From: an uncultured cyanobacterium
GTDB taxonomy: Bacteria; Cyanobacteriota; Cyanobacteriia; PCC-6307; Cyanobiaceae
Length of the DNA stretch: 64,000 bases
Assembly (NCBI GenBank): GCA_903871775.1
Contig: CAIQIA010000002.1
Span: 62,001-126,000 of the forward strand
Direction: 5' to 3'
The first letter of the stretch is position 1. Each line of letters starts with the position of its first letter. The position numbers and the translations under genes were made by a program. This document shows, piece after piece, positions 43,194 through 51,655 of the stretch. Under the pieces are notes generated by a model. That model did no database searches and was not told the DNA's origin. It was given only the letters and a program-made list of their open reading frames with translations.

Positions 43194-46013
43194 ATGGCTT
43201 CCAGGGAGCCAGGGTCCCTCGTCGTGATCGTCGCCTCGGCCGGCAGCCTTCAGACCCTGCGCCTGCTGGTGTCGCGGCTGACCCCTGACCCCACCGCCGC
43301 GTTCCTGGTCGTGCGCCATGCCGGCGGCGGGCCATCGCCCGAAGACCTGCTGCAGACCCTCGCCGCCTGCAGCCCCCTCGCCGTGGGGCAGCTGCAGAAT
43401 GGCGAGACGCCCGAGGCCGGCACCCTGCGGCTGCTGCCCGAGGGGCTGGAGGTGGACGCCAGCGGCCCGCACCTGCACCTCAGGGTGCCCAGGGAAGGGT
43501 TCCGCCCTGCCCCCTGCATCGATGCGATGCTCGCGAGCCTGGCGGCGGCCTGGGGCCCACGGCTCATCGTCGTCATGCTCTCGGGCCTGGGGGCCGACGG
43601 GGCCCTCTTCACCGGCATGCCGTCGGCCGCCGTTCAGCTGGGGGGCCTGGCGGCGGTGCTCGAGCCGGCAGCCATCAGCGGCTGGCTGAACCAGCAACTG
43701 CGCAAACGGGGAACCATCGAGAGCGACGACGATCTCGGGCTCCCAGCAGAGATGCTGCATCAGATTCTGGTCGTGCTGCAGGAGCGCACAGGCATTGACT
43801 TCAGTCGCTACAAGGGATCCACCGTCTGCCAGCAGGTGCAGCGACGCCTGGCACTGCTGAAGCTCGGTGACATGACCAACTATTTAACAATGCTTGAAAA
43901 CGATGATCAGGAGGCCGAACGGCTCAAAGCCAATCTGCTGGTGGGTGTGACGCGCTTCTTCCGCGAACCGGCCACGTTTGCCGCCCTGGCCGACGCGGTG
44001 AAAGCCCAGATGGAAAGCCACCTGCCAGGCCAGCCCCTGCGGGTGTGAGTGCCAGGCTGCGCCAGCGGCGAGGAGGCGTACTCGATCGCCATGGTGATCA
44101 GCGCCGCCCTCCAGCACCCCGCCGATCTCAATGACCGGCTCAGGCTCTTCGCCACCGACCTGAACGAGAGTGCCTTGGCGATGGGCCGCAGGGGGCGGTA
44201 CCCGCTGACCAGTGTCGAGACGGTGCCCGCCGACCTGCGTGAGCGGTTCTTCCACCCCCGCGAAGGCCAGCTCGAGATCAGCCGTGAGCTGCGGCGCTGC
44301 ATCGTCTTCAGCCGCCACAACCTCGGCAGCGATCCGCCGTTTCCACGGCTGGATCTGATCTCGTGCCGCAACACCCTCATCTACTTCAACCCGACCCTGC
44401 AGGCTCAGGCCCTGCGCAGCTTCCGCTTCGCCCTGGCCCCCGGGGGGCTGCTGCTGCTGGGGCAATCCGAGACCCTGCCCCCCAGCCTCGGCGGGTTCAC
44501 GACCCTCAATGCCCAGCAGCGGCTTTACCGCCTCAGCAGCCATCTGCAGCGCGACGACCTCATCGCCATGACCCCCCGGTCCGTGGGCACCCTTCCCATC
44601 AGCTCGCGCCGACAACCGCTGCACCGCCACGACCATCCGCCGCCGCAGCATGTCGCCCTGCTCGAGGCGATGGTGCAGCAACGGCAGCCGCCCACCCTGG
44701 TGCTTGACGACAACCTCGATCTCGTGGCCGTCCTCGGCGATGTGAGCCGCTACTGCACGTTGCCCCAGGGCCAGCTCTGCTCCTCGGTGGTGGGCTTTCT
44801 GCGGGAGGAGGTGCGGCAGGAAGCCACGGCCCTGCTGCTGCTCAGCCGCAACAATCAGGCGGTGCAGCAGAGTCGGCCGCTGCAGCTGGGGGACGGCCTC
44901 GAACCGGTGCGGCTGGAGGTGGCCCCCCTGGCGGTGGCGGGTCGCGCCCTGCGCTGCCTCACCTTCCATCCTCTGCCGGCGCCCCTGGCGGGGCCGGTGC
45001 AGTCGCTGTCGCTGGAGCTGACCCAGGAGATGGCCCGCCTCGAAGGCGAACTGCTGAGCAGTCAGAACAGCCTGCGGGAGTCGATGGCCGAACTGGAGCA
45101 GGCGAACGAAGAGCTGGAGGCATCGGCCGAAGAGCTGCAGGCCTCTTCGGAAGAGCTGCAGGCGTCGAACGAGGAACTGGAGGCCTCGGTCGAGGAGCTG
45201 CAGGCCAGCAATGCCGAGCTGGTGGCCCTCAACCAGGAGCTGCGGCAGCGGGGGGAGGAACTCGAGCAGGCGAACATGGACCTGCAGAACATCCAGGGCT
45301 CCCTGAGCCAGGGCATGGTGATCGTCGATCGCCAGCTGCGGATCCTGCGGTTCTCACCCCTGGCGGTGCGTGTGTTCGGGCTGTTGGAGAGCGACCGGGG
45401 GCTGCCCCTGCTCGAGGTGCCCACCACCCTGCCCCTGCAGGGCCTGGCCGAAGCCCTGCAGACCGTGGTCAACGGTGGTCCACGGCAGCAGCTCGAGGCC
45501 AGCAGTGAGGAGGTCGCCTACCTGCTGCGGGTGCTGCCCTACCTGGGCCACGACGAGGATCTGCTCGGGGCGATCGTCGCCCTCACCGACGTGTCGGAAC
45601 TGGTGGCCATGCGAAAGGTGGCCGAGGCCTCCCTCGCCGAGTTCGTCTCCCTGACCGATGCCCTGGATGACGTGGTGTGGAAACGGAACGAACAGCTTGA
45701 TCGCCTGCTGTACCTGAGCCGGCAGGCTGAAGCCATCCTGGGCCGTTCAGTCAGCGAACTGATCCAGGATCCCGGATGGCTGGACCAGCGGATCGCACCG
45801 GAGGATCGGCCGATGGTGCAGGCGGAGCGGCAACCGCAGGTCCCCTGCTGGCGCCTGCGGTACCGCTGGCACTATCCCGACGGTCGGGTGTTGCTGCTGC
45901 AGGAAACGGCGCAGCGGCTGGAAGGCGAACTGGAGACCTGCGTCATGGGAACCCTGCGGGTGCTGGATGCGGGCCAGGGTGATTTTGGTCTGGGGTCCCC
46001 AAAATTCCCATAA
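43194..46013 (+). pseudogene. CheB-CheR-PAS fusion protein interrupted by in-frame TGA
   Basis: One continuous frame of 939 residues except for TGA at 44046-44048. First part: a CheB methylesterase-like domain with likely Ser/His/Asp residues (VASAGSLQTL, VVRHAGG, LSGLGADGA) and the CheR helical domain. After the stop: CheR motif VPGCASGEEAYSIAM, ATDLNESALAMGRRGRYPL and LISCRNTLIYFNP. Then a long Glu/Leu coiled coil (residues about 625-690 of the joined protein), and two PAS-like domains; no kinase or GGDEF domain follows. CheR proteins normally read LRVWxxGCxxGEE, so TGA replaces an expected TGG Trp. GTG 44049 could restart translation but would split the methyltransferase. Confidence 0.85.
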
Positions 46014-46114
46014 AAGCGTCATAATGAAGAATTCGGGCCTGGCCTGGTTCCCCATGGCCAGCTGGGTTGTTTTCGCTTCAATCCCCGCAGCCCTTTCATC
46101 CATCCCGACCTCTT

Positions 46115-46708
46115 ATGGCAAAGATTTCAGGAACCCTCGGGGCCGACGCACTGATCGGCACAGCTCTCAGCGACACCTACTTGATTAACAACTCGGGTGA
46201 CACCATCAGCCCAGACCCTGGGGGCTATGACACGGTGTTCTCGTATTTCAGCTTCACCCTTGGCTCTGGGCTCGAAGATCTGGTCCTGCTCGGAACAGGC
46301 AACATCAATGCCACTGGCAACAACTTCAGCAACTCTATCCAGGGGAACAGCGGCAACAACATTCTCTCGGGTGGGGGTGGCCTGGACGTTCTCATGGGGG
46401 GAGCAGGCGCTGACGTGTTCCGCTTCAATGAACTGGGCTGGATGCATGCCGATCAGATTGTTGACTTCAACACCCTTGAGGGTGACAAGATCGTGCTCAC
46501 CTCAGCCATCACCGGCCTGCCCGCCGGTACACCTCTGGCCTACTACCTGAATGCCCCCTCCAAAGACCGCACCCCCGGGGTGGTGCGCCAGCCAGGAGGG
46601 ATCGGCCTCGCCTTCGATCGAGACGGCATTGGCCCAGCCAAGGCCATTCTCTTTGCCTCCGTCAGCCCGTTTACCGTCCTTGATTCGCGCAGTTTCGCGA
46701 TCGTCTGA
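46115..46708 (+). CDS. Small RTX-type (hemolysin-like) calcium-binding protein
   Basis: A 197-residue protein with RTX-like repeats: ISGTLGADALIGTALSDTYL, NNILSGGGGLDVLMGGAGAD, then VFRFNELGWMHADQIVDFN, the typical block before the C-terminal secretion signal. Likely exported by a type I system and folded by calcium outside the cell. No export genes are nearby. The codon pattern and surrounding 100-base upstream gap are less GC-rich than neighbours. An AT-rich stretch with CATAAT near 46019 could be a promoter. ATG 46115 is used; TTG 46067 is less likely. Confidence 0.85.
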   Translation: MAKISGTLGADALIGTALSDTYLINNSGDTISPDPGGYDTVFSYFSFTLGSGLEDLVLLGTGNINATGNNFSNSIQGNSGNNILSGGGGLDVLMGGAGADVFRFNELGWMHADQIVDFNTLEGDKIVLTSAITGLPAGTPLAYYLNAPSKDRTPGVVRQPGGIGLAFDRDGIGPAKAILFASVSPFTVLDSRSFAIV

Positions 46709-48113: not shown

Positions 48114-49055
48114 GTGATCGCTTCCGCCGTCACCATGCCTCCGGGACGAGACGCCAGCAGTGGCCAGGGCTCCGACCCCCGCACCCAGCGCCATCCCCTC
48201 CTGAGGGGGCGGTTCGTGGTCGGCCACGACAGCCCCACCCCCCATGGAGACGGGACCGTGCTGATCGTCGGCGGCGCCGAAGACAGGGAGGACCGGAAAC
48301 TCATCCTTGACCACTTCCGACGGGTCTGCGGCGGCGACGAGGCCTGCATTCTCGTGATCGGCGTCGCCTCCGAAATGCCCGACGAGATTGTGGCGGTCTA
48401 TGACACGGCGTTCCGTGATCTCGGGGTCAGGGAGGTGCGCGGCATCACGGCACGCAACCGCAGCGAACTGCTGGCCCTTGACGTGTCACCGCTGCTGGAT
48501 GGCATCACCGGGGTGTATTTCGGCGGCGGTGATCAGCTGCGGATCTGCGCGATTCTGGGGGGAACTCTCTTCCATGACCGCCTGCAGGCACTGATCGCAG
48601 CTGGCCTGCCGGTGGGTGGAACCAGTGCCGGGGCGTCGGCCATCAGCGACACCATGATCATCGGCTGGGACCCTTCAGACCAACCCCTTGCCGACAACAT
48701 CCGCCTCTCCTCGGGCCTCGGGATTTTGCAACAACTGATCATCGATCAGCACTTCACCGAACGCAGCCGCCTCAGCCGCCTGATCACCAGTGTCGCTTAT
48801 CACCCCGGCTACCTGGGCATCGGCATCGACGAAGACACGGCTGCCATCTGCACCCGGCAGGGGGTCCTGTCGGTGATCGGCAGCGGCACGGTCACGATCG
48901 TCGATGGCAGCGAAATCTCTGAATGCAACGTGGTTGAAACCCCCTCCAACCACCCGTTCTCTGTGATCGGCATGAAGATTCACGTGCTCTCCACTGACCA
49001 CCACTTCGATCTGCTCCATCGCCGCCCCCTGCCCGGACCTGATCGCCCTGACTGA
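48114..49055 (+). CDS. cphB: Cyanophycinase
   Basis: Serine-type exopeptidase (family S51) that degrades cyanophycin to beta-Asp-Arg dipeptides. The 313-residue product has VLIVGGAEDREDRKLILDHF, VYFGGGDQLRI, the nucleophile elbow GGTSAGASAISDTMI and IDQHFTERSRLSRLI. GTG 48114 opens the frame; ATG 48135 (MPPGRDASS) is an alternative. Two bases separate it from cphA; the pair is a common cyanobacterial arrangement. Confidence 0.95.
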   Translation: MIASAVTMPPGRDASSGQGSDPRTQRHPLLRGRFVVGHDSPTPHGDGTVLIVGGAEDREDRKLILDHFRRVCGGDEACILVIGVASEMPDEIVAVYDTAFRDLGVREVRGITARNRSELLALDVSPLLDGITGVYFGGGDQLRICAILGGTLFHDRLQALIAAGLPVGGTSAGASAISDTMIIGWDPSDQPLADNIRLSSGLGILQQLIIDQHFTERSRLSRLITSVAYHPGYLGIGIDEDTAAICTRQGVLSVIGSGTVTIVDGSEISECNVVETPSNHPFSVIGMKIHVLSTDHHFDLLHRRPLPGPDRPD

Positions 49056-49057
49056 CG

Positions 49058-51655
49058 ATGGACCTGCTTAAACTGCGCGCCCTGCGCGGCCCCAATTACT
49101 ACAGCATCAGCAACACCAAACTGGTGGTGCTGCGGGTGAACCTCGGCCACCGATCGCAGCAGAGCACCGCCGACGATCCCGAGTTCGTGGCACGCCTGGA
49201 CGGGGCCCTGCGCCTGGAGGGGCATCTGCTCGACCAGGTTGAAGCCGGGGTCTCCTATGCGCGGCTGCTCGAGATCGTCTGCCTGGAACTGCAGTTCTTC
49301 AGCGGCATGAACGTCACCTTCAGCCGCAGCGTGCCCACCGCCAGCAGCGACATCTGGAATGTGGTGGTGAGCTACGAAGAGGAGGAAGCGGGCCTGTTCG
49401 CCGCCGAGAAGGCCGTGCGCCTTCTGCAGCTGGTCGCCGATCCCGACGAGTCGGTCGAGGCCCTGCAGGCCGATGTGCGCGCCTGGACCCAGCGGCTGCG
49501 GGAGATCCGCGATCGCACCCGCTTCGGCCCCAGCACCGAGGCGCTGATCTCGGAGGCGGCCCGCCGGGGCATCCCCCACCTGCGCCTCAACAGCGAGTCG
49601 CTGGTGCAACTGGGATATGGACGCCATCAGCAGCGCATCTCGGCCTCCATCACCGAGGCGACCCGTGTCATCGCCGTTGACCTGGCCGGCAACAAGTTCG
49701 CCACCAAGCGACTGCTCGAGGACATGTCGATCCCGGTGCCCAGCGGTCGCACGATCAGCGATGCCGAGGACCTCGACCCTTGTCTTGACCGCCTGGGGTT
49801 CCCGGTCGCGATTAAACCCCTCGACGCCAACCAGGGCCGCGGCATCACCGTGAACGTGCGCAGCCGTGAACAGGCTCTCGAAGCCTTCGCCAAGGCGCGG
49901 GAGATCTCCAAACGCGTGATTGTCGAGCAGTCGCTGCAGGGAAACGACTACCGCGCCCTGGTGGTGAACAACAGGCTGGTGGCCGTGGCCCGCAGGGAGC
50001 CGGCCCATGTGGTGGGCGACGGGGAACACACCATCACCGAGCTGGTGGAGCTCGCCAATCGCGACCCCCGCCGTGGCTTTGGCCATGAGAATGTGATGAC
50101 CCGCATTGAGCTCGATGCCGCCTCCCTGAGCCTGCTGGCTGGTCGCGGCCAGGGCCCCGAGACGGTGCTCGCTGCCGGTGAACACTGCCCACTCAAGACA
50201 ACCGCGAACCTCTCCACCGGCGGCACCGCCACCGATGTGACCGATGAGGTCCACCCCTTCAACAGCTTCCTGTTCGAACGCATTGCCCATCTGGTCGGCC
50301 TGGACGTCAGCGGCATCGATGTGATCGCCCCTGATCTGCGTACACCGCTGAACGAGAATGGCGGCGGAATCATTGAGGTCAACGCCGCTCCCGGCCTGCG
50401 CATGCACCTGTCGCCCTCAGACGGCAGGCCGCGCAACGTGGCTGAACCGATCATCGACATGCTGTTCCCTCCGGGCACACCGGCGCGCATCCCGATCGTT
50501 GCCGTGACCGGCACCAACGGCAAAACAACAACGACACGTCTGATCGCCCACCTGATCAAGAACACCGGAAAACTTGTGGGCTACACCACCAGCGAGGGTG
50601 TCTACATCGGCAATTATCTCATCAGCCGCGGTGATTACACCGGTCCCCTCTCAGCGCAGATGGTGCTGAAGGATCCGAAGGTGGAGGTGGCTGTGCTCGA
50701 AACCGCCCGGGGGGGCATGCTGCGGGCAGGGCTCGGCTTTGATCGCTGCGACATCGGCGTTCTCACGAACATCAGCCCAGATCACCTCGGTCTCGGTGAC
50801 ATCGACACCGTGGATGACCTGGCCAAGCTGAAGGCGGTGGTGCCCGAATCAGCCACGGGTCATGCGGTTCTCAATGCCGATGACGAACGGGTGATGGCCA
50901 TCGCCTCCTCGCTGCGGTGCCCCCTGGCCCTGTTCAGCCTGCAGCCCGACAACCCCCACCTGCGCGATCTGCCCGCCGATGGGGTCGCCTGCCTCGTGGA
51001 GAACGACTGGGTGGTGATCCGCAAGGGCGACTGGACCCTGCCCGTGGAACGGGTGGTCAACATTCCGATCACCTACTCCGGTCGGGCGGTGTTCAACCTG
51101 CAGAACGCGATGGCCGCTGCCCTGGCGGCGTTCTGCCACGGCCTCAAGGTGGATGAGATCCGGGTGGGCCTGACGACCTTCACCCCCTCGGTGGCCCAGA
51201 CCCCCGGACGGATGAATCTGATCCCCCTCAATGGTTACTCGGTGCTGATCGACTACGCCCACAACACAGCAGGCATGGAAGCGATCGCCGGCTTCCTCCA
51301 GGCCCACCCCGCCTCACGACGCACGGCCGTGATCGGTGGCACCGGCGATCGGCGGGATGATGACATCGTGGCCCTCGGCCGTCTCACGGCCCAGCTGTTC
51401 GACCGCGCCATCCTGAGGGAGGACGAGGACCTGCGGGGTCGGGCACCGGGGGAGGTGCCGGAACTGCTGCGCCAGGGGCTGGAGGGCCACCGCCACGACT
51501 ACCCGTGGGAGCTGGTCTCCGACTCACGTTCGGCCATCCGGCAGGCGCTGGACCAGGCCCAGGCAGGGGAGCTGGTGGCCATCCTCGGCGGTGACATCCA
51601 GCACGCCATCGACATCAGCGGTGAGTACAGCCAGCGGCTGCTCAGCCACCCCTGA
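49058..51655 (+). CDS. cphA: Cyanophycin synthetase (CphA1 type)
   Basis: ATP-dependent, non-ribosomal enzyme that builds the Asp-Arg polymer cyanophycin as nitrogen store. The 865-residue product has an N-terminal domain, an ATP-grasp region (about 210-460; FPVAIKPLDANQGRGITVNV, IIEVNAAPGLRMH) and a Mur-ligase-like domain with the P-loop AVTGTNGKTTTTRLIAHLI (near 490), TNISPDHLG and IDYAHN. All three modules are intact and the length is normal. Follows cphB directly and converges with the isoaspartyl peptidase gene 11 bases on. Confidence 0.97.
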   Translation: MDLLKLRALRGPNYYSISNTKLVVLRVNLGHRSQQSTADDPEFVARLDGALRLEGHLLDQVEAGVSYARLLEIVCLELQFFSGMNVTFSRSVPTASSDIWNVVVSYEEEEAGLFAAEKAVRLLQLVADPDESVEALQADVRAWTQRLREIRDRTRFGPSTEALISEAARRGIPHLRLNSESLVQLGYGRHQQRISASITEATRVIAVDLAGNKFATKRLLEDMSIPVPSGRTISDAEDLDPCLDRLGFPVAIKPLDANQGRGITVNVRSREQALEAFAKAREISKRVIVEQSLQGNDYRALVVNNRLVAVARREPAHVVGDGEHTITELVELANRDPRRGFGHENVMTRIELDAASLSLLAGRGQGPETVLAAGEHCPLKTTANLSTGGTATDVTDEVHPFNSFLFERIAHLVGLDVSGIDVIAPDLRTPLNENGGGIIEVNAAPGLRMHLSPSDGRPRNVAEPIIDMLFPPGTPARIPIVAVTGTNGKTTTTRLIAHLIKNTGKLVGYTTSEGVYIGNYLISRGDYTGPLSAQMVLKDPKVEVAVLETARGGMLRAGLGFDRCDIGVLTNISPDHLGLGDIDTVDDLAKLKAVVPESATGHAVLNADDERVMAIASSLRCPLALFSLQPDNPHLRDLPADGVACLVENDWVVIRKGDWTLPVERVVNIPITYSGRAVFNLQNAMAAALAAFCHGLKVDEIRVGLTTFTPSVAQTPGRMNLIPLNGYSVLIDYAHNTAGMEAIAGFLQAHPASRRTAVIGGTGDRRDDDIVALGRLTAQLFDRAILREDEDLRGRAPGEVPELLRQGLEGHRHDYPWELVSDSRSAIRQALDQAQAGELVAILGGDIQHAIDISGEYSQRLLSHP

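Follow-up and report, generated by a model that had tools for sequence, protein, structure and literature searches.

An interrupted CheB-CheR-PAS gene and its neighbourhood

We analysed a stretch of 64,000 nucleotides (the window) from the genome of an uncultured cyanobacterium of the Cyanobiaceae, whose assembly comprises 27 contigs and 2.57 Mb and is 96% complete. On its forward strand, one frame runs from the ATG at 43194 to the TAA at 46011-46013, and its single internal stop, read directly in the sequence, is a TGA (Table 1). The residues on the two sides of this codon are LRV*VPGCASGEEAY. Our Pfam analysis matched the CheB_methylest and CheR_N domains in the 5' piece. In the 3' piece it matched positions 39-191 of the 195 in the CheR profile, followed by a PAS part with PAS_10 and PAS_4 matches that is preceded by a highly conserved coiled coil. 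When the frame is read across the TGA, the CheR match extends over profile positions 2-191 of 195, which is almost the whole profile. CheR_N and the S-adenosylmethionine (SAM)-binding domain of CheR are complete only in this joined reading and are broken in the gene as sequenced.

We then compared the interrupted position with the solved structure of Salmonella CheR and found that the stop aligns to a tryptophan (RVWSAAASTGEEPYS in PDB entry 1af7) lying just 5' of the SAM-binding motif. Neither piece would be expected to give an active CheR. For annotation, the locus is better recorded as one interrupted gene than as two proteins.

Two other observations concern the neighbouring genes. The next ORF downstream (46067-46708, forward strand) would encode a putative small protein with glycine-rich repeats of calcium-binding type (GGGGLDVLMGGAGADVFRF). 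At 48114-51655, also on the forward strand, there are two adjacent ORFs that were recognised by eye as a putative cyanophycinase and a putative cyanophycin synthetase.

Table 1. Location of the features discussed in the text (window positions unless another locus is named).
Feature	Location	Strand	Description
5' piece	43194..44048	+	degenerate CheB (about residues 10-137) and all-alpha CheR_N (189-237); ends at the TGA
Degenerate CheB domain	window 43194-43690 and L003		GASAGG loop lost in both species; CheR and PAS constrained
Site of 63-nt in-frame deletion, CheB domain	43599..43604	+	between residues 136 and 137; sister species as reference
TGA stop codon	44046..44048	+	Trp in the sister species and in 30/30 family homologues
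GTG codon adjoining the stop	44049..44051	+	sole in-frame candidate for immediate reinitiation; read by eye
3' piece	44049..46013	+	CheR SAM-binding domain from the stop onward, then coiled coil and PAS domains, up to the TAA
G320 homologue with TAG	L121 (G320:C53 226000-234000)		independent of the window TGA
che cluster	L118:6514-14100		compact, complete
tRNA-Trp(CCA)	L073:1500-1574	+	A24 in the D stem

The stop position in relatives and the degenerate CheB domain

The sister species (G001) is the single other genome of the genus that was compared. Its homologue is an uninterrupted ORF of 963 amino acids with TGG at the site of the stop. Both sides of the window TGA align to this one ORF with 67% identity over 944 residues; thus, the joined frame is not a product of chance. 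Beyond the genus, the nearest named relatives in a search of GTDB genomes belong to Cyanobium and Synechococcus, at 44-48% identity. The highest identity in the alignment-based query of these genomes was 48%, and the single read-through protein gave no match as a query. The identity of the window protein to its homologues in the family is 44-52%, compared with about 67% to the sister species.

Tryptophan occupies the stop position in all 30 aligned family homologues as well as in the sister species. At the codon level, 24 of 25 CheR-family genes from relatives have TGG, and the remaining one, a distant paralogue of the same genome, has CTC (Leu). No TGA was found at this site among the relatives compared, that is, in these 25 CheR genes and the 30 family homologues. 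Because tryptophan is present throughout the homologues and leucine in one distant paralogue, tryptophan is the ancestral state here, yet it is not strictly needed in every CheR. These results agree with most of the earlier note on this DNA. That note had described the two pieces as a single frame divided by the TGA alone, which the sequence confirms, and had placed the stop where CheR proteins carry tryptophan, as is the case in the 30 homologues, the sister species and 1af7. It had traced the TGA to a single G-to-A change from TGG, the codon that G001 has. Its claim that the cut falls in the SAM site and should leave both pieces inactive as methyltransferases is supported by homology to the solved CheR (1af7), and the intact homologue that it proposed to look for in close relatives exists as the 963-aa ORF of G001.

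Another genome of the family (G320) carries a homologue with its own single in-frame stop, a TAG within the coiled coil (EELLAAN*ELATL). This separate TAG suggests that nonsense alleles recur across the gene family.

The CheB domain is a different case. Although it is recognised by Pfam, its active-site loop, of GASAGG type, has become VASAGS in the window copy and ITSARS in that of the sister species. We counted the near-invariant CheB positions that were lost and found 20 of 46 in the window copy and 22 of 46 in the sister copy, whereas the CheR methyltransferase domain has lost only 4 of 51 in each. Eight of the 20 positions lost in the window copy lie in a deletion of 21 residues directly after GADG. 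Candidates for the Ser, His and Asp residues are, by eye, still present in the domain. The earlier note had stated that both sides of the stop keep strong domain motifs, and this does not hold for a CheB domain with so many lost positions and such a deletion. Erosion of the domain is shared by both species of the genus, so its decay predates the stop, and the gene that the stop interrupted probably encoded a CheR-PAS protein with only a remnant of CheB. The length of the deletion is a multiple of three, which suggests that it occurred while the gene was still in use; otherwise such a length would have a one-in-three chance.

Constraint, chemosensory background and decoding

To estimate constraint, the window copy was compared with G001. 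The dN/dS ratio of the whole gene was 0.31, with 0.48 upstream of the stop and 0.24 downstream; by part, it was 0.05 in the coil and 0.18 in PAS1. In a relative-rate test, in which outgroups polarise the amino-acid changes, 45 changes were assigned to the window copy and 48 to the sister copy, and after the stop the numbers were 31 and 28. The interrupted copy thus decays no faster than the intact one. There is no second stop or frameshift in the 2.8 kb frame. Judging by its codon content, a lack of constraint over the entire branch should have left some 26 additional stops in the gene. Their absence dates the loss, roughly, to the most recent 11-13% or so of the branch, a bound that assumes an even split of dS between the two branches and equal mutation types (a simple spectrum) and that is valid only if the downstream part is untranslated, as a gene that is read through would stay clean too. 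An old pseudogene is ruled out by the single stop, the clean frame, the dN/dS of 0.24 after the stop and the equal rates with the sister copy. The case shows the pattern of a recent nonsense allele, namely a lone stop that is lacking in close relatives within an otherwise constrained frame.

We also examined the chemosensory genes of the genome. On another contig there is a canonical cluster that encodes a receiver-CheB, a CheA with a receiver, CheW, an MCP (the one MCP found in the genome), a further CheW and a CheR with TPR. The CheW and CheR ORFs of this cluster, as called, overlap by about 70 bases. The fused CheB-CheR-PAS gene stands alone outside the cluster, and it is not the cell's only source of CheB and CheR. 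Because the cluster encodes ordinary CheB and CheR, chemosensory adaptation need not vanish with the fused gene, whose protein may have served a separate, PAS-linked function. In the family, matches of any kind to the fused protein, some of them short or to plain CheR or CheB, occur in 69 of 400 genomes, and this low number indicates that the gene is dispensable there.

The decoding machinery was investigated for a possible reading of UGA. None of the 41 typed tRNAs of the genome has a UCA anticodon, and the one match above threshold to the tRNA-Sec model is tRNA-Ser(UGA); a selenocysteine or suppressor tRNA was rejected on these grounds. RF2 is present. A tRNA-Trp with a 4-bp anticodon stem has been linked to UGA reassignment (PMC13092985), and this type is excluded here, since the anticodon stem of the tRNA-Trp(CCA) has the full 5 bp. 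The same tRNA has A24 in its D stem, a position that we numbered by hand from the sequence. In E. coli, A24 arises as the G24A mutation of the Hirsh UGA suppressor tRNA-Trp (PMC11805395), so a low-level leak at UGA is plausible. However, a tRNA-Trp that is 100% identical is found in the sister species, which has TGG, and in many relatives; thus, A24 is a family-wide background rather than an adaptation to this stop. When about 55 kb of coding sequence was compared with the sister species, no reassignment of UGA to tryptophan was found: this TGA is the only in-frame stop that faces tryptophan deep inside a frame and has no better intact overlapping reading. With no UCA tRNA, the same tRNA-Trp in relatives with an intact gene, and RF2 present, dedicated or programmed readthrough is unsupported.

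Explanations of the stop and comparison with known systems

We consider it probable that the stop is a recent TGG-to-TGA nonsense mutation in a dispensable accessory signalling gene, and this is the best reading of the data. The picocyanobacterial CheB-CheR-PAS gene, which stands on its own and was under purifying selection until recently, would have acquired the codon by a G-to-A transition at 44048. Translation would then mostly stop after residue 284, leaving a fragment made up of the degenerate CheB and CheR_N that lacks the methyltransferase site. What follows in the frame would remain untranslated, or would yield little product, through leaky insertion of tryptophan at UGA or through reinitiation. 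This reading takes the base to be real, termination to be efficient and the loss to be tolerated; tolerance is probable because the canonical cluster, itself observed directly, carries its own CheB and CheR.

The main rival is that the base was misread during sequencing, assembly or consensus calling, so that the true codon is TGG and the gene is intact and working. It explains the data nearly as well as the recent nonsense change, although we regard it as clearly less probable. One wrong base would suffice, and it would leave the frame on either side just as clean; both sides are as constrained as the intact sister copy, and apart from the in-frame deletion the frame has no second defect. However, the gene was already unusual in its 63-nt deletion and eroded CheB domain, and the assembly does not seem obviously error-rich, because the comparison with the sister species, over approximately 55 kb of coding sequence, revealed no frameshift and no further stop that could be placed within the interior of a gene in its true frame. 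The other in-frame stops, where checked, belonged to alternative frames or stood at the ends of genes; this census was not exhaustive, since shadow frames resemble coding frames at 70% GC. For the same reason, a codon-usage scan of the 242-kb contig for other broken genes was useless, as antisense frames looked coding; homology to the sister species combined with a third-position filter performed better and still listed shadow frames. The earlier note had listed a recent event, an error and readthrough as the explanations. That list stands, and its first two entries are the better supported.

A third possibility is that the near-cognate tRNA-Trp reads UGA usefully as tryptophan, so that the cell would obtain a short CheB-CheR_N protein together with some enzyme of full length. 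A leaky tRNA-Trp would restore the original residue after a TGG-to-TGA change, the tRNA of this genome has the A24 of the Hirsh suppressor (PMC11805395), and constraint downstream of the stop is intact. In addition, many bacterial genes with in-frame stops are reported to be under purifying selection, although most such stops are short-lived at the population scale (PMC7918605). Against this stand the identity of the tRNA across relatives, G001 with its TGG among them, its 5-bp anticodon stem instead of the 4-bp reassigning type (PMC13092985), the presence of RF2, the lack of a UCA-anticodon or Sec tRNA in the genome, and the conservation of the stop in none of the relatives, so that we think this reading improbable. 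It is somewhat less probable still that the A24 tRNA makes the TGA a dimmer rather than an off switch, giving a low dose of full-length protein. If readthrough were true, the A24 tRNA-Trp of the family would make UGA nonsense alleles leaky, and pseudogene calls in these genomes would be affected.

The gene could also now be split, with termination at 44048 and translation resuming at GTG 44049 or ATG 44091; the two products would then act independently or come together again. The GTG lies directly 3' of the stop and opens an ORF of 654 amino acids. However, in the 1af7 alignment the cut falls not at a domain boundary but inside the motif and strand of the SAM-binding fold, a strand that we take to be its first. 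There is also, by eye, no Shine-Dalgarno-like sequence just upstream of the GTG, and no relative is split at this point; this explanation is therefore very improbable. As it stands, the recent nonsense mutation would make this locus one more single-stop gene, and nothing points to a special decoding system.

Our literature search on CheB-CheR-PAS fusions in cyanobacteria found nothing directly relevant. The window gene shares its domain order with CheB-CheR-PAS fusions of Cyanobium/Synechococcus and of many other bacteria. It differs from these fusions by the TGA in the CheR domain and the eroded CheB with its 21-residue deletion, and its C-terminal part is shorter, most family copies having about 1,100 amino acids. 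As in the set of bacterial in-frame stops in PMC7918605, there is a single recent stop in a constrained frame; in contrast to that set, the window stop was seen in one genome and gives no sign of being kept. Salmonella CheR (PDB 1af7/1bc5) resembles the window protein in its CheR_N and SAM-binding fold and in the tryptophan that 1af7 has at the stop position, but it is a free-standing enzyme without a stop. The Hirsh UGA suppressor tRNA-Trp (G24A) shares A24 with the native tRNA-Trp of this genome, in which, unlike in the Hirsh suppressor, A24 is a putative suppressor base and is common to the cyanobacterial family.
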